This document shows, one piece after another, positions 2,851 to 14,251 of a DNA stretch of 64,000 nucleotides. Within the stretch, counting starts at the first letter, position 1. Each line of letters starts with the position of its first letter. Where the stretch lies: contig NZ_CP109487.1 of the NCBI RefSeq assembly GCF_036227605.1, positions 6,695,501 to 6,759,500 of the forward strand, written 5' to 3'. This DNA is from Streptomyces sp. NBC_01439 (GTDB lineage Bacteria; Actinomycetota; Actinomycetes; Streptomycetales; Streptomycetaceae). The notes under the pieces are model-generated. The model searched no databases. It saw nothing but the letters and a program-made list of their open reading frames with translations, and had not been told where the DNA came from. A program made the translations under genes and the position numbers.

Positions 2851-4878
2851 ATGGTCAACAAGAATCGGATGAACAGGGTCGCCGCGATGATGGCGGCAGC
2901 CGCCTTGGTGTCCGTGGTAGTACCCGCCTCGACCGCCCAGGCGGCCGTGGCACCGCGCATCGACCTGAAGGTGCTGGTCGTCGACGACGGCGGCAGCTCG
3001 GTCGAGGCGATCACCGCGGAACTCCGCGACACGGGGGTGCCCTACACCCGCGTCCAGCTGGGCAGCAGCGGCCGCCCGGTCATCAACGCGGGCTTCCTCA
3101 GCGACACGGTCGACGGCCGCCCGCGCGCCAAGTACCAGGGCGTCGTCCTGCCGAACGAGAACCCGTTCGGCGAGGGTTCGGCCGAGATGGCCGCCCTCAC
3201 CGCTTACGAGACGACCTACGGCATCCGCCAGGTTGACGCCTACACCTGGGCCCACCCGGGCGTCGGGCTGGAATACACCGACAACGGCGGCTACAGCGGC
3301 CAGCTCGACGGCACCCAGGCCGCCGTCACCACCGCCGGAAAGGCCGGCCCCTTCGCCTACCTCGGCGGCCAGGTCACCTTCGAGGACAACTCGGCCCTGG
3401 TCCCCGAGAGCTTCGGCTTCATGGGCAAGCCGCGCCCCGGCTACACCAGCTACGTCGATGCGCCCGTCGGCTCCGGCCGGGCCTCCCTCGTCGGCGAGTA
3501 CACGCACGACGGCCGCAGCGAACTGGTCGTCACCTTCGGCTACAACCAGTACCAGCAGCAGTTCCGGCTGCTCGCCCGCGGCATCGTCGACTGGCTGACC
3601 CAGGGCGTGCACCTCGGCCAGAGCCGCAGCTACTTCGCGGTCCACGTCGATGACGTCTTCGCCCCCGACGCCCGCTGGAACAAGGAGCTGAACTGCACGC
3701 CGGGCGACTACGCCTGTGCGGGCGGCGAGGGCAAGGAGAGCACCATCCGGATGAGCGCCGCCGACGCCGTGTACGCGGCGCAGTGGCAGACGTCCAAGAA
3801 CTTCAAGCTGGACATGCTCTTCAACGGCGGCGCCGGCGAGGAGTGGAAGGCCGAGAACGGCGGCGTCGACGCGATGACCGCCCAGCTCGTCGCCGACCGC
3901 GCCAAGTACCGGTGGATGAACCACACCTACACCCACCCGTTCCTCGGCTGCGTCCAGAACACCGCCGTCACCCCGTGGACCTGCACGAAGAACGCCGCCG
4001 GCGCGATCCAGTACATGAGCCGCGCCGACATCTCCGCCCAGATCCGCGACAACAACAACTGGGCCGCCGCCAAGGGCATCACCACCGACAAGACCGAACT
4101 GGTCACCGGTGAGCACTCCGGTCTCAAGACCGCACCGCAGCAGCCCGTGGACAACCCCAACCTGGCCGGCGCCCTCGCCGACAACGGGGTCAAGTGGGCG
4201 GGCAGCGACAACTCCCGCGAACCGGCGCAGCGAGCCGTCGGCGCGGCCCTCACCGTCCCCCGGCACCCGATGAACGTGTACTACAACACGGGCACCAACG
4301 CCGAGATGGCCGACGAGTACAACTGGATCTACACCAGCCGCGCCCACGGCGGAAGCGGCATCTGCGAGGACAACCCGGCGACCTCCACCTGCCTGCCGGC
4401 CCCGCTGAACGTCAACACCGGCTACCTCGACACCATTGTCCCGGCCGAAGCCCGCACCGCCCTGCGGCACGTCCTGGCCAACGACCCGCGGCCGCACTAC
4501 GTCCACCAGTCCAACCTCGCCGAGGACCGGACCCTCTACCCCGTGCTCAACCAGGTCCTCGACACCTACCGCACCCTGTACGCCCCCAGCGCGCCGATCG
4601 TCAACCAGAGCATGAAGGACACCGGCGTCGAGTTCCAGCGCCGCGCCGCCTGGGACAAGGCCCTCGCGGACGGCAAGGTCACCGCCTACCGCATCGGCAA
4701 GGACGTCACCATCAAGGCGCCCTCCGGGGTCGTCGCCCCGATGACCGCCCCCACCGGCACCAAGAAGCAGCTGCTGCTCGGCACCGCCGACTTCGGCACC
4801 GCCTACGCCGGTACCCGCTCCGCCTGGACCGGTCCGGAGACGCTCCAGAGCGCCGTCACGCTCAAGCTGCCCAGCTGA
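2851..4878 (+). CDS. Secreted polysaccharide deacetylase-like protein (Agd3/CE18-like)
   Basis: A 675-residue exported protein. Residues 1-31 form a Sec signal peptide (basic start, alanine-rich core, probable cleavage after AQA). A deacetylase-like centre is suggested by HVDD at 265-268 and HTYTH at 358-362, which resemble the Asp and HxxxH metal ligands of NodB-like esterases. Gene context (GT4 enzyme, Sph3-like protein, GH114 protein) points to the Agd3/CE18 type, which partly deacetylates galactosaminogalactan. The start ATG follows a purine-rich GGGGGGAAAGG. It is the first gene of the locus; a hairpin lies before the next gene. The exact esterase family is inferred from context and motifs. 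Confidence 0.68.
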   Translation: MVNKNRMNRVAAMMAAAALVSVVVPASTAQAAVAPRIDLKVLVVDDGGSSVEAITAELRDTGVPYTRVQLGSSGRPVINAGFLSDTVDGRPRAKYQGVVLPNENPFGEGSAEMAALTAYETTYGIRQVDAYTWAHPGVGLEYTDNGGYSGQLDGTQAAVTTAGKAGPFAYLGGQVTFEDNSALVPESFGFMGKPRPGYTSYVDAPVGSGRASLVGEYTHDGRSELVVTFGYNQYQQQFRLLARGIVDWLTQGVHLGQSRSYFAVHVDDVFAPDARWNKELNCTPGDYACAGGEGKESTIRMSAADAVYAAQWQTSKNFKLDMLFNGGAGEEWKAENGGVDAMTAQLVADRAKYRWMNHTYTHPFLGCVQNTAVTPWTCTKNAAGAIQYMSRADISAQIRDNNNWAAAKGITTDKTELVTGEHSGLKTAPQQPVDNPNLAGALADNGVKWAGSDNSREPAQRAVGAALTVPRHPMNVYYNTGTNAEMADEYNWIYTSRAHGGSGICEDNPATSTCLPAPLNVNTGYLDTIVPAEARTALRHVLANDPRPHYVHQSNLAEDRTLYPVLNQVLDTYRTLYAPSAPIVNQSMKDTGVEFQRRAAWDKALADGKVTAYRIGKDVTIKAPSGVVAPMTAPTGTKKQLLLGTADFGTAYAGTRSAWTGPETLQSAVTLKLPS

Positions 4879-4911
4879 CCGTCCGGCAAGCCACCACAAG
4901 CACCACGTAGC

Positions 4912-4949
4912 GCCGGCGCTCCGCGAACCCACGGGCGCCGGCCCCTTTT
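4912..4949 (+). terminator. Hairpin plus T-run inside the exopolysaccharide locus
   Basis: GCCGGCGC (4912-4919) pairs with GCGCCGGC (4935-4942) and is followed by CCCTTTT. It sits between the deacetylase-like gene and the glycosyltransferase. It may be a partial terminator that lowers expression of the downstream genes relative to the secreted enzyme. Confidence 0.45.
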
Positions 4950-4971
4950 CCGTCCTGGGGGGACACACCGC

Positions 4972-6525
4972 ATGAGTCATGGGCGTCACGTCACCATGCT
5001 CACCGAAGGCACCTATCCGCACGTCCACGGCGGCGTCAGCACCTGGTGCGACCAACTGGTACGAGGCATGCCGGAGGTCGACTTCAACGTCATAGCCCTG
5101 ACCGGCTCCGGACGAGAGCCGGTCACCTGGGAACTGCCCCGCAACGTCTACCGGCACACCGCCTTCCCGCTCTGGGGGCCGCTCCCGGCGCGCATCCGCC
5201 GGTCGACCCTGCGCGGCAGGGCGCAGCGCCGCTTCACCGAGGTCTACGAGAGCTTCCTGCTCACCCTGCTCGATCCCGAGCCCGATCCGGCCCGGCACAG
5301 CTTCTCCGAGGCCCTGCGCGAACTGGCCGTCCTCGCCCGGGCCGGAAAGCTCGCCCCGGCCCTGCGCTCCGAGTCGGTGCTGCGCCTGCTGATGAACGTG
5401 TGGACCCGGCCCGGACTCGTCACCGCCGAGGCCGAGCCCACGATCCACGACGCGCTCACCGCCACCGACCTGCTGGAACACGCGCTGCGCCCGCTCGGCG
5501 TCCGGATCCCTCCCGACAGCGTCGCGCACGCCGTCAGCAGCGGCCTCGCCACCCTCCCGGCCCTCGCCGCCAAATACCTCGACGGGGTCCCCTTCCTGCT
5601 CACCGAGCACGGCATCTACCTGCGCGAGCGCTACCTCGGCTACCGCAGCGCCGCCCAGCGCTGGCCCGTCAAGGCCCTCATGCTCGGCTTCTACCGCGAG
5701 CTCAACACCGAGGGCTACCGGCAGGCCGACCTGATCACCCCGTGCAACCAGTACAACCGCCGCTGGGAGGAGCGCGGGGGTGCCGAGTCCGAGCGCATCC
5801 GCACCGTTTACAACGGCGTGGACCCGCACGCCTTCCCCGAGGCCGGCCCCGAACCCGACGTGCCCACCCTCAGCTGGTGCGGCCGCATCGACCCGATCAA
5901 GGACCTCGAAACCCTCATCCGGGCCTACGCCTTCATGCGTGAGGAACTCCCCGCCCTGCGGCTGCGCCTCTTCGGGCCCGTCCCGGCCGGCTGCGAGGAG
6001 TACAAGCTCCGCCTGGAGAAGCTCGCCGCCGAACTCGGCGTGACCGACGGAATCACCTACGAGGGCCGCATAGAGCAGGTGGCCCTGGCCTACGCGGCCG
6101 GCAGCGTCGTCATGCTCTCCTCCATCAGCGAGGGCTTCCCCTTCAGCATCATCGAGGCCATGTCCTGCGGCCGCACCACCGTCTCCACCGACGTCGGCGG
6201 GGTCCGCGAGGCCGTCGGCGACACCGGCCTCGTCGTACCGCCGCGCGAGCCCGAGACCATGGCCCGCGCCACCCTCGCCCTGCTGCGCGACGACGAACGC
6301 CGGGCCGAGCTCGGCCGGCTGTCCCGCAAGCGGGTCGTCGAGAAGTTCACCCTCCACCAGTCCGTGGACGGCTTCCGGCACATCTACCGCGAACTCGCCG
6401 GCCAGCCCGTCCTGCCCGTCCACGCGGGCGACGCGTGGACCCAGCGGCTCGCCGATCCCTGGTACCGCGAACTCGCCGCCATGGGGCACCCCCAGACGGA
6501 CTCCGGGGAAGGGGGCTCGTGGTGA
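4972..6525 (+). CDS. PelF-like GT4 glycosyltransferase
   Basis: A 517-residue cytoplasmic GT-B fold enzyme, probably polymerising an amino-sugar exopolysaccharide from UDP-sugars. The N-terminal motif TEGTYPHVHGGVSTW is typical of PelF-type GT4 proteins, and the C-terminal domain has the nucleotide-sugar motif SEGFPFSIIEAMSCG (E-x7-E). No membrane segment is seen. The start ATG has a GGGGGGA ribosome-binding site. It overlaps the next gene, for a membrane protein, by a few bases, so the two are translationally coupled. In Pel systems PelF works with the membrane protein PelG; in Aspergillus the corresponding enzyme is Gtb3. The acceptor and sugar are inferred. Confidence 0.8.
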   Translation: MSHGRHVTMLTEGTYPHVHGGVSTWCDQLVRGMPEVDFNVIALTGSGREPVTWELPRNVYRHTAFPLWGPLPARIRRSTLRGRAQRRFTEVYESFLLTLLDPEPDPARHSFSEALRELAVLARAGKLAPALRSESVLRLLMNVWTRPGLVTAEAEPTIHDALTATDLLEHALRPLGVRIPPDSVAHAVSSGLATLPALAAKYLDGVPFLLTEHGIYLRERYLGYRSAAQRWPVKALMLGFYRELNTEGYRQADLITPCNQYNRRWEERGGAESERIRTVYNGVDPHAFPEAGPEPDVPTLSWCGRIDPIKDLETLIRAYAFMREELPALRLRLFGPVPAGCEEYKLRLEKLAAELGVTDGITYEGRIEQVALAYAAGSVVMLSSISEGFPFSIIEAMSCGRTTVSTDVGGVREAVGDTGLVVPPREPETMARATLALLRDDERRAELGRLSRKRVVEKFTLHQSVDGFRHIYRELAGQPVLPVHAGDAWTQRLADPWYRELAAMGHPQTDSGEGGSW

Positions 6526-8078
6526 GCGGATCGCTCTGGCTCAAGCCGCCCGGTTCCGGCGCCGACACGCTCCCGGCCGTCCCCCGGCCGCGCCGCGACG
6601 GCCCCGGCGCGGACGTCACCGCCGCCGACGCCGCCACCGACCCGATGGACGAACTCGCCGAACGCCTCGACGTGTTCATCGCCTCTGCCGTCCACCCCGA
6701 CGAGATCGCCGCCATCCTCGAATCCGACGGCATGACGGACGAGTACATCCGGCTCACCTACGGCCGGCACGACTCCTTCGCGCTCGCCGAGGAGCTCTAC
6801 GCCCGGGTGCCCCGCTCTTTCCCGGAGCCGGGCGCCGCCCCCGACCCCTGGAAGGTCTCCCTCACCGCCTGCCTGCTGCGCGGGGTGATCTTCGCCCTGC
6901 CCGGCCTCGCCTACCTGCTCGGCGCGCCCCTGCTCGAAGGCCCCCAGGACCGCCTCGGCCTGCCCGCCGGAACCCTGACCCTGCTCGCCGGTGCGCTCAT
7001 CGGCTGGGTCTGGGACCAGACCCTGTCCCACCGGGCGTACTCCTGGCTCGGCCTCGGCGACCGGCGCGCCGCCGGGCGGACCCTGCTCGTCGGAGCCCCC
7101 GTCGGCGCCCTGTTGGGCACCGCCGCCGCACTGGCGGTGCCCGGCGGGCCGCCGTTCTCCTACGCCTTCGCCGCCGGACAGGCCTTCTACGTCGGGGCCG
7201 CCACCGTCCTGCTGGTCCTCGGCCGGGAACGGGTCCTGCTTGCCGCGCTCGCCCCGATGGCCGCCGGAGCACTGCTCGCGCTCTTCGTCGACCTGCCCGT
7301 GCCGGTCCGGGTGACCCTGCTCGTGGTGTCCCTGCTGGCCGCCTGCGCCCTGGCCCTACGGGAACTCCCGCTGCGCGCCGGGCTGCGGTCCGCCGTGCGC
7401 CGGATCCGTGCCCACGCGGCCCGCCGACCCGGCCAGGGCCCCGTGCGCTGGCAGATGCTGCGCGGCGCCGAGGAGGACTTCGCACCCCGCGGACCCCGGA
7501 TCGGGGACTCGGTCCCCTTCGGGGTGTTCGGCCTCGGCACCGGCCTGCTCGTGCTGTACGCCGCCCTCGGGGAGGTCCTCGCCGGAGGCCCCGCCGAGGA
7601 GGTCGCCGCCCCCTCGGCGGTGGCCCTCACCCTCAGCATGGGCCCGGCCGAATGGCTGCTCCACCGTTTCCGCAGCGGGACCCTCTCCGGACTCCAGGGG
7701 GCCCGCTCGCCCCGGGCCTTCCGCCAGAGGATGCTCGCCACCCTGACCCGGTGCCTGGCCGTCTACCTGACCGTCCTGCTGGTCCTGGGACTGGCCGGCA
7801 CCCTGCTCTGGCCCGGCGCCCCCGTCCTCACCGGAGTCCGGATCGCGACCCTGCTGCTGCTCGGGGCCGTCATGTGGACCGGGCTGCTCCTGCAGTCCTT
7901 CGGAGCGGTCCGGCCCGCGGCCGTGGTCTGCTCCTCGGCCGCCGTCGTCCAGAGCCTGGCCCTGCTGACCGGCCTCGGCCAGCCCCGGGCGGTCCAACTG
8001 GTGGTGGCGGGCGCCGCCGCCACCGTACTGGCCGCCCTGGTCTGCCTGCTCCTCGGCCGCGCGACCGCCCACCGATGA
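6519..8078 (+). CDS. Polytopic membrane protein of the exopolysaccharide locus (PelG analogue?)
   Basis: A 519-residue protein with a cytoplasmic N-terminal stretch of about 110 residues followed by roughly ten or more hydrophobic segments to the C-terminus. No enzymatic motif is visible. It starts at GTG 6519 or the adjacent GTG 6522, inside the stop of the glycosyltransferase gene, and itself overlaps an ATGA at 8075. Position next to a PelF-like enzyme suggests it carries the polymer or polymerase through the membrane, as PelG or the transmembrane part of fungal Gtb3 would. I cannot show sequence homology to PelG, so the role is inferred from context and topology. Confidence 0.6.
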   Translation: MVSGSLWLKPPGSGADTLPAVPRPRRDGPGADVTAADAATDPMDELAERLDVFIASAVHPDEIAAILESDGMTDEYIRLTYGRHDSFALAEELYARVPRSFPEPGAAPDPWKVSLTACLLRGVIFALPGLAYLLGAPLLEGPQDRLGLPAGTLTLLAGALIGWVWDQTLSHRAYSWLGLGDRRAAGRTLLVGAPVGALLGTAAALAVPGGPPFSYAFAAGQAFYVGAATVLLVLGRERVLLAALAPMAAGALLALFVDLPVPVRVTLLVVSLLAACALALRELPLRAGLRSAVRRIRAHAARRPGQGPVRWQMLRGAEEDFAPRGPRIGDSVPFGVFGLGTGLLVLYAALGEVLAGGPAEEVAAPSAVALTLSMGPAEWLLHRFRSGTLSGLQGARSPRAFRQRMLATLTRCLAVYLTVLLVLGLAGTLLWPGAPVLTGVRIATLLLLGAVMWTGLLLQSFGAVRPAAVVCSSAAVVQSLALLTGLGQPRAVQLVVAGAAATVLAALVCLLLGRATAHR

Positions 8079-8107
8079 CGCACCCCCCGTCCGAGAAGAA
8101 GGACCCC

Positions 8108-8770
8108 ATGCTGCTGGTGCCCCTCTACGAGCATCCCGCCGACCGGCCGGAAGCCTGGGAGCGGCTCATCCGCTCCGCCGGCCGGCTGCACTCGGTGGTC
8201 CTCAACCCCGACAGCGGACCGGGCGCTGTCCGCGACGAACGGTTCGCCGTCGTCGCCGAACGGCTGCGCGAGGCCGGGGTACCCGTCCTCGGGTACGCCG
8301 ACACCGACTACGGGCGGCGCCCGCACGCCGAGGTGGTGCAGGACCTGCTGCGCCACCGCGACTGGTACGCCACCGACGGGGCCTTCCTCGACCAGGCCTC
8401 CGCCGACCCGGAACTGCTCCCGCACTACGGGCGGCTCGCGGTCGCCGCCCGGGCCGCGGGCGCCCGCACCCTCGTCCTCAACCACGGGATCCACCCGCAC
8501 CCCGGGTACGCCGAACTCGCCGACCTGCTCGTCACCTTCGAGGGCCCCTGGGACGCCTACCGGGACGCGGCCCCCGCACCGCCGTGGACCGCCGACCACC
8601 CGGCCGCGCGGTTCTGCCACCTCGTCTACGCCGTCCCGCCGGGCCCGTTCGCCGCCCGGCGCGCCGAGGAACTCGCCACCGAACGCGGGGCCGCGGTGCA
8701 CTGCGCCGTCCCGGGCAGCGGCGCGCACCCCTGGGGGACCCTGCCGTACGCGCTGGAGGCGGCGGGATGA
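8108..8770 (+). CDS. Spherulin-4 / Sph3-like protein (GH135-like)
   Basis: A 220-residue protein whose start (MLLVPLYEHP) and motifs VVLNPDSGPG, VLGYADTDYG and GAFLDQAS match the spherulation-specific family 4 pattern, a TIM-barrel family that includes the fungal galactosaminogalactan hydrolase Sph3 (GH135). The start at 8108 has a good AGAAGGA site; ATG 8075 (ATGA overlap with the previous gene) is the alternative but lacks one. Neither start gives a signal peptide, unlike fungal Sph3, which is odd for a polymer hydrolase and suggests a cytoplasmic or membrane-associated role. It overlaps the GH114 gene by ATGA. Confidence 0.72.
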   Translation: MLLVPLYEHPADRPEAWERLIRSAGRLHSVVLNPDSGPGAVRDERFAVVAERLREAGVPVLGYADTDYGRRPHAEVVQDLLRHRDWYATDGAFLDQASADPELLPHYGRLAVAARAAGARTLVLNHGIHPHPGYAELADLLVTFEGPWDAYRDAAPAPPWTADHPAARFCHLVYAVPPGPFAARRAEELATERGAAVHCAVPGSGAHPWGTLPYALEAAG

Positions 8771-9576
8771 GGAAGATCGCACTGCTGCTGGCCGTGCCCC
8801 TGCTGCTGCTCGCGGCGTGCACGGCCGAGCCGGAACCGGAACGCGACGGGCTGTCGCCCGATCCGCCGCCGGGGGAGCGCTGGCAGCCGAAGCCGGGGGT
8901 CGGCTGGCAGTGGCAGCTCACCGGGAAGCTCGACACCTCGGTGAAGGCGGCCGTGTACGACGTGGACGGGTTCAACACCACCAAGGAGCAGGTGGCCACC
9001 TTGAAGAAGGCCGGCCGCAAGACCATCTGCTACCTCTCCACCGGCGCCTGGGAGGACTTCCGGCCGGACGCCGGATCCTTCCCGAAGGCGCTGCTGGGCC
9101 AGGGCAACGGCTGGGAGGGCGAACGCTGGTTGGACGTCCGGCGCCTGGCGGAACTGGAACCGCTGATGGCCAAGCGGTTCGACATGTGCAAGGCGAAGGG
9201 CTTTGACGCGGTGGAGCCCGACAACATGGACGGTTACGCCAACCGGTCCGGCTTCCCGCTGACCGCGGACGACCAGCTGAAGTACAACCGCCTGATCGCC
9301 CGGCTGGTGCACGAGCGGGGCATGTCGGTGGGGCTGAAGAACGACCTGGACCAGATCCCGGAGTTGGTGGGCGACTTCGACTTCGCGGTCAACGAGCAGT
9401 GCATGGAGTACGAGGAGTGCGACCGGTACGTGCCGTTCATCGACGCGGGCAAGGCGGTGTTCCACGTGGAGTACGAGGGCAAGCTGAACCGCTGGTGTCC
9501 GCGGGCCCGGGCGGCGAAGCTCAGCTCGCTGCAGAAGCGGTACGACCTGGACGCATGGCGCCAGGTCTGCCAGTAG
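8767..9576 (+). CDS. GH114-like endo-alpha-1,4-polygalactosaminidase lipoprotein
   Basis: A 269-residue lipoprotein: the N-terminus MRKIALLLAVPLLLLAAC ends in a lipobox with Cys18 as the lipid-modified residue, so the enzyme is anchored outside the membrane. The body has GH114 hallmarks: YDVDGF near the start of the barrel, TICYLSTGAWED, and VEPDNMDGY, with acidic residues suited to catalysis. GH114 enzymes (fungal Ega3) cleave deacetylated polygalactosamine. It starts in an ATGA overlap with the Sph3-like gene and ends the locus; the next gene is convergent. It would trim or release the deacetylated polymer made by this locus. Confidence 0.82.
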   Translation: MRKIALLLAVPLLLLAACTAEPEPERDGLSPDPPPGERWQPKPGVGWQWQLTGKLDTSVKAAVYDVDGFNTTKEQVATLKKAGRKTICYLSTGAWEDFRPDAGSFPKALLGQGNGWEGERWLDVRRLAELEPLMAKRFDMCKAKGFDAVEPDNMDGYANRSGFPLTADDQLKYNRLIARLVHERGMSVGLKNDLDQIPELVGDFDFAVNEQCMEYEECDRYVPFIDAGKAVFHVEYEGKLNRWCPRARAAKLSSLQKRYDLDAWRQVCQ

Positions 9577-9661
9577 CCGCGCCGGCGGTTTCGGCAGCCT
9601 TCGTGAGGGCCGCCCCCGGCCCCGGCCGGGGCCACCTCGGCCCCGCCGGGCCCTTTGGACG

Positions 9662-10279
9662 TCACGGTGAAGCGCCGGTGCCCGGTGCCGGCGCGCGGCT
9701 GTTGATGACCGCGCAGGCGTACGACGTGAGGCCGGCGCGCAACTGGTCCCAGCCCTCCTCGTCGTCGGGCGCGAGGCCTGCCATCAACCGGCGCTGCTGC
9801 TCCACCACGAAGGGCCACGAGGCGATCCCGATCAGGGTCATCAGCAGATGACCGACCTCCTGGGGCGAGGTGAGGGACAGCGCCTTTCCGAGGGTCTCGT
9901 TCTTGCTCAGGTAGTACGCCTGGCGCTCCTCCTCGCCGGGAATCGCGGCGTCTCCGTAGTGCAGGCCCTCCCAGGCCAGGAGCCGCACGAGGCTGGTGTC
10001 ACGGCGGTGGTAGTCGAAGATCTGGCCGACGTAGTGCTCGAGGTCCTCCCTCGTCGTCGGCACCGGCACCTGCTCGCCCAGTTCCCGGTACGCGTGCTTC
10101 AGGACGGTGGAGAACAACTGCTCCTTGCTGCCGAAGTAGGAATACAGGCGCTGCTTGTTCGCCGCAGCCTGCTCGGCGATGCGGTCCACCCTGGCGCCTG
10201 CGATGCCGAACTTGGCGAACTCAGCACGGGCCGCGTCCAGGAGACGGGTCGGCGTGTCTCGGGTTGCGTCCTTGGTCAT
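9662..10279 (-). CDS. TetR-family transcriptional regulator
   Basis: A 205-residue one-component regulator. Residues about 10-55 hold the TetR helix-turn-helix (GARVDRIAEQAAANKQRLYSYFGSK); the C-terminal domain would bind a ligand and dimerise. It diverges from the AfsA-like operon, with a 38-bp palindrome (10297-10334) 17 bases upstream of its start, so it most likely represses both itself and the operon. The recognition helix does not look like the ScbR/ArpA gamma-butyrolactone receptors, so the ligand may be an intermediate or a different small molecule. Convergent with the GH114 gene. Confidence 0.9.
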   Translation of the reverse strand: MTKDATRDTPTRLLDAARAEFAKFGIAGARVDRIAEQAAANKQRLYSYFGSKEQLFSTVLKHAYRELGEQVPVPTTREDLEHYVGQIFDYHRRDTSLVRLLAWEGLHYGDAAIPGEEERQAYYLSKNETLGKALSLTSPQEVGHLLMTLIGIASWPFVVEQQRRLMAGLAPDDEEGWDQLRAGLTSYACAVINSRAPAPGTGASP

Positions 10280-10296
10280 GAACTCACCTTAGCGGC

Positions 10297-10334
10297 CAAC
10301 CAACTGGATAGTTAAGAAACCATCTAGTTGGTTG
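10297..10334. promoter_or_regulatory. Palindromic operator between tetR gene and AfsA-like operon
   Basis: CAACCAACTGGAT (10297-10309) and ATCTAGTTGGTTG (10322-10334) are inverted copies with one mismatch, separated by 12 bases. The site is much less GC-rich than its surroundings and lies between the two divergent genes. The right half contains TTGGTT, which could be a -35 for the rightward operon with TTTAGT about 19 bases on. This is the likely binding site of the adjacent TetR protein. Confidence 0.78.
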
Positions 10335-10547
10335 CACCCTTTCGGGTGATCGTTTAGTGTCGGTGACGTCAGCCCGGCAGGCACCTCCGACAGAGCCGCC
10401 GGGGCCTGGAGCAGCCCGGCACACGGCCTGGGCCGGAATCCGCACGGCGCTCGGAGCCGCGCCGGTCTCCGCGCTTCGCACACTCATCACTCCGGTCAGC
10501 CGTCGTGGCAGTTCCATGCCGCACGGCCCCACTACCGAGGAGTTCCC

Positions 10548-11315
10548 ATCAATCACTCGATCCAGAGCATCGTCCTGGTCGGGGACCGGTTCATCGGGTT
10601 CGCCGTCCAGGAGAACGTCTTCACCGTCTCGCAGTTAGTCGACGACATCCGGCGCGGCGTCTACGCCAAGGAGGGCGACCCGGTCCTCATAGAAAGCGCC
10701 CAGGGCGTGTCCGAGGCCGATGTCTTCCTCATCGTCGAGGAACTGCGTCATCGCGGCCTGGACCGCGTACACGTCCGGCTTCAGCCCTCCACCCTCAGCG
10801 GAGCCGGCGAGGTCCACAAACACCAGGTCGCCAACGCCCTGATCGCGGATCTCCACCAGGTGGACGACTCGCACTTCGGCGCCGGACTGCGGCTGCACAA
10901 CGACAACGAGCTCCTGCTCGACCACCAGACCGGGCAGCACGTGCAGGGCATGGTCGCCATCGAGGCGTCCCGGCAGATGTTCCTCGCCGTGACCGAGCGG
11001 TTCTTCGCCGCCCAGTGGCCGCAGCGCAGGTACTACTTCGTCATCGAGCACATGAACACCACCTTCGAGAACTTCCTGTTCCCGCTGTGTTCGACCATCG
11101 AGTACCGGATCACCGAGTCCCGGACGCAGGACCCGTCCAGGCTCTCCTTCAGCGCCGAGGTCGGCATCCACCAGGCCGGCCGCCGCGCCGCCTTCACCCA
11201 GCTGGCCTTCACCGCCTTCGAGACCGACGTGATCGAGGCCAAGGAGGACCGGCGTGCCCGCCGGGCCGTCGAGCACACGCTCCGGGCCCCGGCCGACGCC
11301 CTGTCCGGCGTCTGA
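10548..11315 (+). CDS. AfsA-like hotdog-domain protein, non-canonical start, TTA codon
   Basis: Related to AfsA, which joins a beta-ketoacyl-ACP to dihydroxyacetone phosphate in butyrolactone signal synthesis. The motif DHQTGQHVQGMVAIEASRQ in the C-terminal half matches the AfsA hotdog repeat. The first usual start in frame is GTG 10707 (202 residues), but good codon usage and a sensible protein continue upstream to 10548. There GAGGAG sits five bases before ATC; no ATG, GTG or TTG is in frame in that extension. From ATC the product would be 255 residues. The extension contains a TTA leucine codon at 10635-10637. Either an ATC start, a point mutation of ATG, or a one-base frameshift from ATG 10516 explains this. 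Confidence 0.7.
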   Translation: MNHSIQSIVLVGDRFIGFAVQENVFTVSQLVDDIRRGVYAKEGDPVLIESAQGVSEADVFLIVEELRHRGLDRVHVRLQPSTLSGAGEVHKHQVANALIADLHQVDDSHFGAGLRLHNDNELLLDHQTGQHVQGMVAIEASRQMFLAVTERFFAAQWPQRRYYFVIEHMNTTFENFLFPLCSTIEYRITESRTQDPSRLSFSAEVGIHQAGRRAAFTQLAFTAFETDVIEAKEDRRARRAVEHTLRAPADALSGV

Positions 11316-11322
11316 CAGACCC

Positions 11323-11403
11323 CGGCCCCCGGCCGTTTCCGCGGCCCCCGGCCGCTTTCCCGGCCCGGCCGTTTCCCCGGCCCCCGGCCGTTCCCTCGGC
11401 CGC
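11323..11403. repeat. Degenerate GC-rich tandem repeats
   Basis: The 147-base gap between the AfsA-like gene and the next gene is made largely of about four imperfect copies of a roughly 20-base unit around CCCCCGGCCGTTTCC. No gene or clear terminator is seen. The units could pair as RNA or be a slippage-prone spacer. Confidence 0.5.
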
Positions 11404-11462
11404 CGCCGCACCCCGGGCGTCGCCCGGTTCCCCCTTCTGTAGATCCCCTGAGGAGCACAGTC

Positions 11463-12080
11463 ATGTCCGCATCACTCATCACCGCCGTGGAACTGTCGGT
11501 CAAGCCCGACCAGGTCGATGCCGCCGCCACCGCATGGAAGGCCCACCACGCCGCGTCGGCGTTCGAAGGCCGTGCCCTGTTCCGCAGCCTGGAGGGTTCC
11601 AGCCTCCTGGAGCTGGCCCCGCTCGCCGGCTGGGAACAGCTCGACGCCCTGCGCGCCGACTGGGAGCAGCTGTGGGAGACGCTGGCCCCGGCGGCCGAGG
11701 GCGACTTCCGCCGTCAGGTGCTGGGCTTCGTCGACGCGCCCAAGCCGGTCGACACCCCGCTGCCGCAGACGGCCTACGTGCAGATGCGCCACATCGAGGT
11801 GCCGCCGCGGGTGTACACCGCGTACCGCGCCTGGCGTGAGGAGACCATCTACGACGTGGTGCGCGGCGCCGACGAGGTCGAGGCCTTCGAGGCGTACCAC
11901 TCGGTGCTGAGCACCGAACCCGGTGTCATGTTCGTCTCCGGGTTCAACTGCGACCCGGCCGAGTACAACGCGGTGTTCACCTCACCGCGTTACCAGGAGA
12001 TCGTCCGCCAGGCCGGTGACCGCTTCATCGCGGGCGGCGAGCGCGGTCTCTACACCACGATCTACGCCCGCGTGGCGTAG
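11463..12080 (+). CDS. Unfamiliar 205-residue protein, possible dimeric alpha/beta-barrel (NIPSNAP/ABM-like)
   Basis: Not recognised with certainty. Two halves of about 100 residues each begin with a beta-strand-like stretch and end in a helix-rich segment (ITAVELSVKPDQVDAAATAW; YVQMRHIEVPPRVYTAYRAW), as in ferredoxin-like barrels of the NIPSNAP or antibiotic-monooxygenase type. No catalytic motif is evident and there is no signal peptide. The ATG start has GAGGAG seven bases upstream. It is the second gene of the TetR-controlled operon; a cyclase, isomerase or cofactor-free oxygenase role would fit the pathway but is a guess. Confidence 0.6.
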   Translation: MSASLITAVELSVKPDQVDAAATAWKAHHAASAFEGRALFRSLEGSSLLELAPLAGWEQLDALRADWEQLWETLAPAAEGDFRRQVLGFVDAPKPVDTPLPQTAYVQMRHIEVPPRVYTAYRAWREETIYDVVRGADEVEAFEAYHSVLSTEPGVMFVSGFNCDPAEYNAVFTSPRYQEIVRQAGDRFIAGGERGLYTTIYARVA

Positions 12081-12180
12081 GCGCCGCACGCAGGCCCGTC
12101 GCAGAACCAGGAACCCGACCGGTCGCAGAACGAGGAACCGGCACCGGTCACAGAACGAGCAACCAGACGAGGAGGAGCGG

Positions 12181-13032
12181 ATGGGACCGTCGCGCACCTA
12201 CCAGCTGAGTCTCACCACCCAGGGACCGGCCTACCCGCCCAGCGAAGTGATGGACGAGAACGGCGACTTCGTCGTGATCGGTCGCATCAACCGTGACGAC
12301 GGGGCGGGCGGCGTCTCGAACGGCTGGGGGTGCGCGATCGTCGCCGCCGACAGCCCGCTGCCGGAGTTCGGCAAGAACGAGCCGTACCGCATTGTCCGTG
12401 AACTGCCGGACCACCCGGGCCAGTTCAGCCCCGCCGACAACGCGATCGTGCTCCACACGCTGCCCCTGCCGCTGCCGTGCAGCAACTACCCGATGGTGTT
12501 CGCCCCCGAGCAGTTCCCGGACGCGTCCGAGGTCGTCCGCCCCAGCTATCCGTTCCACCAGGTCGCCGTGCCGGATCTGCGGGCGCAGGACGGGCCGAAG
12601 GTGACCGAACCGGTGACGCTCGGCACCTGGGGCCGGGCGCGCGGCGAGCTCGAGGTACGGCTGAGCGACGACAGGAAGTCCGGAGAGTTCGGCTTCGAGT
12701 TCTCCGGGATGCTGCCGAACAGCCTGTACACGGTGATGTCGCTGCGCGAGCACGACCTGGACCCGGCCGGGCCGACCCGGCCCGGACCGCTCGGAGTGCC
12801 CAACGCCTTCGTCACCGACCAGGACGGCAGGGGCCGCTATCGGGCCGTGCTGCCCGACCCCTTCCCGGCGCCCGGCACCGGCGGCAACCGCATCGTGAAC
12901 GTCGTCGTGCTGTGGATGAGCTACCAGCAGAACTACGGCGGGGCGATCGGCCAGTTCGGTCTGGGCGGGGACATCCACGCGCAACTGAAGCTGCAGGGAC
13001 CGAGCTTCGGCGAATTCATCACCACCGGCTGA
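12181..13032 (+). CDS. Unrecognised 283-residue protein of the TetR-controlled operon
   Basis: I do not recognise a family. The protein is soluble, without signal peptide or membrane segment, and rich in beta-strand-like and proline/glycine stretches. The second half (about residues 148-283, LGTWGRARGELEVRLS through NRIVNVVVLWMSYQQ) reads like a compact beta domain. The ATG start follows GAGGAGGAGCGG, a strong ribosome-binding site, and the reading frame has typical GC3. It lies between the barrel-like protein and the tautomerase in the same orientation, so it probably serves the same pathway as an enzyme or binding protein. Confidence 0.75.
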   Translation: MGPSRTYQLSLTTQGPAYPPSEVMDENGDFVVIGRINRDDGAGGVSNGWGCAIVAADSPLPEFGKNEPYRIVRELPDHPGQFSPADNAIVLHTLPLPLPCSNYPMVFAPEQFPDASEVVRPSYPFHQVAVPDLRAQDGPKVTEPVTLGTWGRARGELEVRLSDDRKSGEFGFEFSGMLPNSLYTVMSLREHDLDPAGPTRPGPLGVPNAFVTDQDGRGRYRAVLPDPFPAPGTGGNRIVNVVVLWMSYQQNYGGAIGQFGLGGDIHAQLKLQGPSFGEFITTG

Positions 13033-13049
13033 CGAGAGGAACGACCACC

Positions 13050-13268
13050 ATGCCGATCATTTCCGTGACGACCTGGCCCAGCGAGGACGACGACAAGTGC
13101 CGTGAGCTCATGGAAGAGCTGACGGAGACCGTGCACCGGGTCACCGGGGCGCCGCGCGACCGGATCACCGTCTACGTCCAGGAGGTGCCGCGAAAGCGCT
13201 GGTCCGAAGGCGGCGCGCTGGGGTCCGACCCGGATTTCGCGCGGCTCAGCCGGGCCGGCGGCCTCTGA
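13050..13268 (+). CDS. 4-oxalocrotonate tautomerase-like protein
   Basis: A 72-residue protein beginning MPIISVTTWP; Pro2 (Pro1 after Met removal) is the catalytic base of the tautomerase superfamily. Length and the pattern MEELTETVHRVTGAPRDRITVYVQEVP match the 4-OT fold, which assembles as small oligomers and moves protons between keto and enol forms. It starts 17 bases after the previous stop with GAGAGGA upstream. In this operon it could tautomerise a beta-keto or enol intermediate. Confidence 0.85.
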   Translation: MPIISVTTWPSEDDDKCRELMEELTETVHRVTGAPRDRITVYVQEVPRKRWSEGGALGSDPDFARLSRAGGL

Positions 13269-13365
13269 CACCGCACGCTCCCGGCACCACCGGCGGCGGT
13301 CCCGGTGCCGGGCACGACGCCCGGCACCGGGACCGCACCACCCCGCACCAGGAAGGAACGCCGGC

Positions 13366-14178
13366 ATGAGCACCCCCCGCCCCGGCACCGAGCACGACAA
13401 CGACAACGACCACGACCGCATGGAGCGCGGGCTGCGGACGCTGCGCCGGATCGAGGCCACCGAGCGGCCCGGCATCCTCGACGGTTTCCAGGACGTGGCC
13501 CCCGGCTTCGGCGAGCTGGTCGTCGGCTTCGCCTTCGGCGACATCTGCTCCCGCCCGGACCTGGAGCTGCCCACCCGCCAGCTCGTCACCGTTGCGGCGC
13601 TCACCGCGCTGGGCAACGCCGCCCCGCAGCTGGAGTTCCACGTACGGGGCGCACGCAACGTCGGGTGCGACCGCCGCGAGATCGTCGAAACGGTCCTGTG
13701 GCTGAGCGGCTACACCGGTTTCCCCGCGACGCTGAAGGCGCTGGGCGTCGTCCGGTCCGTCTTCGCCGCCGAGGGGGCGGGCACGGACGCGCCGTCCGCC
13801 GAACGGTCCGAACGCGCGCTGCGAACGCTGCGCGCCCCCGACGGCGACGGCGGTGTCTGCGAGCAGGTGCTGGCCTCCGTGCGCGCCCTCGACCCGGCCC
13901 TCGCGGACGATCTCGTCGAGAGTGCCTTCGGCCACCTCGACCCCGTCACCTCGCGCGGCGGTCTCGACCCGCTCACCCGCGCCATCGTCTCCGTGGCCGC
14001 CTGCACCGCCCTGGGCACGCTCCGGCCGCAGCTCACGGCACAGGTGCACGCGATCCTCGACGCCGGCGGCACACCGCAGCACGCCGTCGAGACGATCCTG
14101 CAGATGGCCGTGTACGCCGGTGTCCCGGCGGCCGTGAACGGCCTCAACGCGGCGCGCGACGTCTTCCGCACGCGATGA
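13366..14178 (+). CDS. Carboxymuconolactone decarboxylase family protein, two domains
   Basis: A 270-residue protein with two carboxymuconolactone decarboxylase/AhpD-like domains: about residues 62-125 (LPTRQLVTVAALTALG through HVRGARNVGCDRREIVE) and about 202-262 (DPLTRAIVSVAACTALG through AVETILQMAVYAGVPAA). The CxxC pair of AhpD peroxidases is absent, so decarboxylase or lactone chemistry is more likely than peroxide reduction. ATG is preceded by AGGAAGGA. The N-terminus has an Asp/Asn/His-rich stretch (residues 9-18) that looks disordered. Member of the TetR-controlled operon. Confidence 0.85.
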   Translation: MSTPRPGTEHDNDNDHDRMERGLRTLRRIEATERPGILDGFQDVAPGFGELVVGFAFGDICSRPDLELPTRQLVTVAALTALGNAAPQLEFHVRGARNVGCDRREIVETVLWLSGYTGFPATLKALGVVRSVFAAEGAGTDAPSAERSERALRTLRAPDGDGGVCEQVLASVRALDPALADDLVESAFGHLDPVTSRGGLDPLTRAIVSVAACTALGTLRPQLTAQVHAILDAGGTPQHAVETILQMAVYAGVPAAVNGLNAARDVFRTR

Positions 14179-14251
14179 CCGCCGCCATCGAGCCGCTGCC
14201 GCCGCGCGGCGGCCCCGGAGCCCGATCCCGCATCAGAAGGAGGGACCCGTC

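Follow-up and report, generated by a model that had tools for sequence, protein, structure and literature searches.

Homologues of the fungal deacetylase Agd3 were reported from 45 bacterial species by Bamford et al. 2020 (PMC7229062). Besides the deacetylase, the bacterial agd3 operons of that survey encode a cytoplasmic glycosyltransferase and a multi-spanning membrane protein; a GH114 gene is very often present too, and spherulin-4 genes occur in some Actinobacteria. The authors argued that genes had passed between bacteria and fungi. A second point of reference is the Pel operon, which in Gram-positive bacteria has the form pelDEADAFG (PMC7112168). Here we describe a related five-gene operon in Streptomyces sp. 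NBC_01439, found in a stretch of 64,000 nucleotides (contig NZ_CP109487.1, positions 6,695,501 to 6,759,500; hereafter the window) of a genome of 9.58 Mb on a single contig. We think it probable that the proteins of this operon build, export and process a polymer of amino sugars that is de-N-acetylated in part and, like Pel and fungal galactosaminogalactan, most likely rich in alpha-1,4-linked N-acetylgalactosamine (GalNAc). The published activities of Agd3, Ega3 and Sph3 and the Pel model agree with this.

The nearest literature consists of the 2020 survey and a 2025 study in which GH114 genes, including one from S. platensis, were cloned and few of the proteins were soluble (PMC12054363). 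Secretion of an endogalactosaminidase by S. griseus was reported in 1975, without a sequence. Related work can be found in PMC4817252, PMC13254593, PMC11356417 and PMC8224951. Among the papers listed by searches of the open-access literature, seen mostly as titles and the starts of abstracts, we found no experimental or functional study of such a polymer or locus in Streptomyces.

An open reading frame scan of the window confirmed a tight operon of five genes on the forward strand (2851-9576), in which overlaps of 4 bases join genes 2/3, 3/4 and 4/5 and 93 bases separate genes 1 and 2. The five genes and the conserved gene to their left are:

2851-4878, + strand: gene 1, Agd3-like (CE18/CBM87-type) deacetylase, predicted to be secreted, 675 residues, signal-type N terminus (profile, Foldseek, conserved residues).
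4972-6525, + strand: gene 2, PelF-type GT4 glycosyltransferase, 517 residues (DUF3492, NF038011, E(x7)E motif from residue 387).
6522-8078, + strand: gene 3, polytopic membrane protein, 518 residues from the GTG at 6522, with the GTG at 6519 as an alternative start (about 12 transmembrane helices, MOP-exporter-like fold).
8075-8770, + strand: gene 4, Spherulin4/GH135-type hydrolase, 231 residues, no signal-like N terminus (PF12138, match to Sph3 5c5g).
8767-9576, + strand: gene 5, GH114 endo-alpha-1,4-polygalactosaminidase-type protein, 269 residues, lipobox-like N terminus LLAAC (PF03537, match to Ega3 6oj1).
968-2647, - strand: pepA leucyl aminopeptidase, the conserved left boundary, outside the system (NF002073 664 bits for 968-2566; the span is taken from the first TTG and the true start is probably further in).

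The arrangement is conserved in other Streptomyces. We examined the best 80 of 524 deacetylase relatives (the named loci), a sample that is biased to the window's own type because of this selection; Streptomyces sp. CG 926 and S. virginiae are the nearest among them. The pepA gene adjoins the deacetylase gene in all 80, and pelF is present in 77, the membrane protein in 73, GH135 in 70 and GH114 in 62. Where at least 6.5 kb of downstream sequence is available, all five genes are found in 58 of 69 loci; of the other 11, seven lack GH114 only, two lack GH135 only, one has the deacetylase and GH135 only and one the deacetylase only. The overlaps are also kept, between pelF and the membrane gene in 65 of 72 loci and between GH135 and GH114 in 50 of 56. 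Chance adjacency of the five genes can be rejected on this co-occurrence. The initial annotation had proposed five coupled genes that recur in Streptomyces and resemble Agd3, Sph3, Ega3 and a GT4 synthase, and all of this is borne out by the layout, the counts above and the family matches given below. About half of the Streptomyces species sampled carry the Agd3-type gene (195 of 392 genomes). It is present in 22 of 61 near genomes, the window's own included, and in 13 of 396 genomes taken across the phylum (7 of 236 genera).

Gene 1 was assigned through its relatives. A profile built from 16 relatives has a single match in the PDB, which is Agd3 itself (6nwz, E-value 1.1e-12), with 43.9 of its 50.3 bits coming from the carbohydrate-binding part up to the Asp-Asp motif. 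Residues D267, D268, H358, H362 and H552 are invariant across the 16 sequences. At CM1, the D267/D268 pair aligns with the Asp pair of Agd3; at CM2, the HxxxH (H358/H362) was identified as a motif and not via the Agd3 alignment; and at CM3, R456 and R461 are invariant without a mapping to the CM3 Arg of Agd3. The CBM87 match precedes the deacetylase match, both being below cut-off, and C-terminal strands follow in a model with a mean predicted local distance difference test score (pLDDT) of 54. The second hit of a Foldseek search with this model, after 6nwz, was human heparan sulfate N-deacetylase. Family membership is thus seen at the profile level, and gene 1 would encode an Agd3-like deacetylase. 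In the family models GH135 and GH114 pass their cut-offs, while the deacetylase alone does not and reaches Agd3 only through its relatives.

The glycosyltransferase matches DUF3492 of Pfam with 196.5 bits and the PelF model NF038011 of NCBIfam with 168.2 bits (cut-off 100). Its membrane partner has no family match in either collection, PelG (PF16933) included, and neither phmmer nor a membrane profile found a relative in the PDB. The transmembrane part of its structural model does superpose on MATE, WzxE and MurJ, which points to a MOP-fold exporter as far as a computed fold can predict export. The protein occupies the place of PelG in Pel-type clusters. Among 120 listed public proteins, 8 have the membrane profile after the glycosyltransferase part, and 5 of these fusions span nearly the full profile. 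No fungal names were seen among these 120, out of 873 passing proteins, many rows being nameless; a distant membrane relative used as query returned 18 proteins, of which the named ones are all 'hypothetical'. A conserved soluble helical domain without a family match precedes the exporter part (residues 41-95, window 6642-6806), and it is also covered in the fusions.

Both hydrolases match their families. Gene 4 matches Spherulin4 (PF12138) with 104 bits against a cut-off of 30.2, and Sph3 (5c5g) with an E-value of 3.7e-8. By hand count its D106 and E156 align with Asp116 and Glu172 of the 5c5g chain, the places of the Sph3 catalytic pair; the residue after the catalytic Asp is Gln, where Sph3 has Glu. 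The aligned Asp lies in the GIFFDET of Sph3 and is presumably D166. In PMC12054363 the nucleophile of Sph3 is given as Asp196. Gene 5 matches GH114 (PF03537) with 285 bits (cut-off 27) and Ega3 (6oj1) with an E-value of 6e-56, its D152 and E210 aligning with D189 and E247 of Ega3. Among the 62 named relatives the Asp is kept in 60 and the Glu in all, and a lipobox-like motif is present in 42 and missing by the same test in 20. In a tree of 44 GH114 sequences, fungal Ega3 stands beside an actinobacterial GH114 (L178; support 97/84) outside the Streptomyces clade, and the F. solani protein is unplaced on a long branch; the tree settles no transfer.

For the location of these proteins we used a simple hydrophobicity test over the first 45 residues, a crude test that predicts and does not localise. 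A signal-like stretch was found in 75 of 80 deacetylases, 62 of 62 GH114 proteins, 0 of 76 PelF proteins and just 3 of 66 GH135 proteins (values of 1.80-1.86, at the threshold), and so is missing in 63 of the 66. The starts of some GH135 genes were placed by script too far upstream (for example L072, L093, L117 and L142), which leaves their class unaffected. Among 11 more GH135 proteins, taken from other cluster types, one (L047) reaches 2.01, and those of the loci L172 and L173, discussed below, have a hydrophobic N terminus by eye. The word 'secreted' in the initial annotation thus fits the deacetylase and GH114 but not GH135.

Several results weigh against the proposed polymer and its machinery. 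The gene 1 protein alone scores 23.7 bits (2.8e-5) for Agd3_CE and 19.2 bits (0.0011) for CBM87, both below the Pfam cut-off of 27.6, and phmmer with the single sequence has no match in the PDB. At CM4, H552 aligns with the His of HQAN in 6nwz in a segment with an insignificant i-Evalue of 25, so that this mapping is tentative, and the position of Agd3 M666, which is required in the fungal enzyme, is Tyr550 here. The AlphaFold2 model is poor, with the mean pLDDT of 54 given above, and while Foldseek ranks 6nwz first (E-value 1.9e-11) the template modelling score is 0.25. The membrane protein shows no likeness to PelG in sequence (hhalign Prob 0.5), in a comparison where the PelG side consisted of two sequences only. 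The GH135 protein appears cytosolic from its sequence, and the fungal model has both hydrolases membrane-bound and acting on extracellular polymer. GH114 is found in 75 of the 396 phylum genomes against 13 for the Agd3-like gene. No epimerase is present among the five genes by the Pfam and NCBIfam scans, as had been noted before. Lastly, the identity, chemistry and role of the polymer are deduced here from the genes. On the supply of sugar, four GalE-family matches over cut-off lie elsewhere in the genome. At the residue taken as Tyr299, which we assume to set the substrate range of E. coli GalE, three of them have Leu (L175), Val (L176) and Ala (L177) by eye, a comparison that does not show use of UDP-N-acetylglucosamine.

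With these points in mind, the operon could work as follows. One or more housekeeping GalE-type epimerases would supply UDP-GalNAc, which the PelF-type enzyme, judging from its family, would polymerise in the cytoplasm. The membrane protein would export the chain, as its computed fold and its fusions to PelF suggest. The secreted Agd3-like enzyme, with its conserved residues, would then deacetylate it to a cationic, sticking chain, and GH114, with its conserved catalytic pair, would trim deacetylated stretches at the cell surface. More speculatively, the GH135 protein may act on acetylated chains at the membrane's inner face, editing them or clearing them away.

The same machinery might act on another sugar, giving a deacetylated polymer of another N-acetylhexosamine or a heteropolymer (GlcNAc, a Gal/GalNAc mix or 6-deoxy-HexNAc). 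Sister clusters of a second type, with 58-61% deacetylase identity, are found elsewhere in the genome, sometimes in a genome that also has the first type. Between the membrane and GH135 genes they carry a LegB-like 4,6-dehydratase (444.6 bits, below the cut-off of 475), a sugar-1-phosphate nucleotidyltransferase and a short-chain dehydrogenase/reductase, in 9 of 9 loci that are long enough; this count includes L048, the source of the query, and a tenth locus (L049) ends early. A third type (L055 and L168) carries a nucleotidyltransferase, short-chain dehydrogenases/reductases and an NDP-sugar dehydrogenase, which suggests a uronate-containing variant. Given these cassettes, the core enzymes appear to be combined with more than one sugar, and the sister clusters seem to make such polymers, to judge from family names only. 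However, the window's own type has no such sugar-nucleotide genes, the genome does contain genes of the GalE family, and the characterised Agd3 and Ega3 act on GalNAc and galactosamine polymers (PMC7229062), so we hold another sugar to be rather unlikely for this operon. In one genome (G016; loci L041 and L054) the pepA site holds a deacetylase only, and its second-type cluster elsewhere has a deacetylase fragment only; one deacetylase could serve the other cluster.

A wall-bound galactosamine polymer, teichuronic-acid-like or structural, in place of a biofilm or adhesion matrix seems less probable still. In its favour, the 2020 survey (PMC7229062) cites small amounts of galactosamine polysaccharides in the walls of Streptomyces, and GH114 has a lipobox-like N terminus in the window and in those 42 of 62 relatives. 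On the other side, the Pfam and NCBIfam scans of the five genes contain no wall-ligation family, and the characterised sets of Agd3 and hydrolases belong to exopolysaccharides.

The distribution of GH114 bears on a third possibility. Of the 392 Streptomyces genomes, 360 have a GH114 gene of some kind, and among the 197 without the deacetylase gene 70 have a strong match (E-value of 1e-95 or less, hand count). Across the phylum, 29 GH114 loci offered flanks of about 1.5 kb in both directions, and 3 of them have a membrane, GH135 or deacetylase neighbour. GH114 thus commonly occurs without the rest and is not diagnostic of the system. We followed 20 of the 23 best listed deacetylase-free genomes (G266, G375 and G259 were left out). 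In all 20 (L207-L226) the GH114 gene sits at pepA, in 19 of them also with cobS and in the twentieth up to the end of the contig. It stands without other cluster genes in 18, and the other 2 keep membrane and GH135 matches or pieces. A pepA tree made by a quick method, with 105 of its 111 rows labelled, requires at least 12 changes between presence and absence of the synthesis core, of which 5 are forced by well-supported branches. Repeated loss with GH114 retained is the simplest reading; gain is a possible alternative. A scavenging or defence set degrading fungal galactosaminogalactan or the Pel of other bacteria, for which these lone GH114 genes and the secreted S. griseus enzyme would speak, is very improbable, and a purely degradative locus is rejected, as degradation needs neither the GT4 synthase nor the exporter-like protein that the operon encodes together.

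Downstream of the operon (9577-14200) the window has a TetR regulator, an AfsA-type gene, two open reading frames without a Pfam match and a carboxymuconolactone-decarboxylase-family protein. The TetR gene (9662-10279, - strand) and the AfsA-type gene (10707-11312, + strand; A-factor hotdog, 58.9 bits) are divergent and look like a gamma-butyrolactone receptor/synthase pair. As TetR was matched in 1 of the 80 named loci, the pair is probably outside the system. A cobS gene lies downstream in 44 of the 80, and most close relatives (L066-L092) have none; no cobS search of the window itself was made.

Returning to the exported GalNAc-rich polymer, a wider proposal can be made tentatively, and we would expect it to need revision. 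The PelF-type enzyme and the MOP-like exporter, in some cases joined in one polypeptide, may make up a second type of synthase next to PelF-PelG and be the bacterial counterpart, perhaps the ancestor, of fungal Gtb3. Clusters would exchange sugar-nucleotide cassettes to give a family of cationic polymers, of galactosamine type in the window and of 6-deoxy-hexosamine and uronate types in the sisters, with GH135 editing the chain from the cytosolic side. If the operon does make the GalNAc-rich polymer, Streptomyces may depend on one more cationic polymer for its pellets, for adhesion and in its contact with fungi, and the split or fused synthase would be a tractable bacterial model for Gtb3. The lone GH114 genes at pepA are also candidate genes for the endogalactosaminidase of S. 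griseus, which lacks a sequence.

The fungal galactosaminogalactan cluster (Uge3, Gtb3, Sph3, Ega3 and Agd3) shares with the window a CE18-type deacetylase, GH135, GH114 and a GT4-type synthase. It differs in that the window operon has no epimerase, encodes its glycosyltransferase and membrane protein in two genes (joined as fusions in some public relatives) and has a leaderless GH135; Gtb3 is likened to the window pair at the family level and not by sequence. MatAB of Streptomyces, which makes poly-N-acetylglucosamine, is likewise an amino-sugar adhesin system, with enzyme families that differ from those of the operon. The initial annotation further proposed that the polymer of the window would serve biofilm or aerial growth and would be separate from those of MatAB and CslA, which may be so. 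The fungal comparison is largely supported at the level of enzyme families, with an outline that was already published and is extended here. Novelty of the combination is not supported, since the bacterial agd3 operons of Bamford et al. (PMC7229062) already hold deacetylase, glycosyltransferase, membrane protein and very often GH114, and in some Actinobacteria spherulin-4. As far as its text was examined, that paper mentions neither an exporter fold nor sugar cassettes, nor the chromosomal site, a fusion of glycosyltransferase and exporter or a leaderless GH135; its figures and supplements may overlap with these points. New here are the MOP-like exporter model and its PelF fusions, Agd3 beside PelF and PelG, the sister sugar cassettes, the leaderless GH135 and the GH114-only remnants.

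With Pel the operon shares the PelF family glycosyltransferase, a membrane partner and an extracytoplasmic deacetylase, and it differs in having an Agd3-type deacetylase and not a PelA-type one, and GH114 and GH135 and not GH166. A canonical Pel operon is rejected, since the Pfam and NCBIfam scan of the five genes found no PelD, PelE, PelG or PelA-type deacetylase and hhalign saw no likeness to PelG. The earlier claim that Pel lacks this combination was drawn too sharply. A PelF-like gene lies nearby in 6 of 7 non-Streptomyces genomes with an Agd3-like gene. One of these loci (L172) has the order GAF-GGDEF protein, PelF, PelG (475 bits), Agd3 (85.8 bits, above cut-off) and STAS, while the opposite strand carries a Spherulin4 gene. 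Another (L173) is arranged alike, as judged from BLAST and length, with a PelG 87% identical. An Agd3-type deacetylase can therefore accompany a true Pel synthase.

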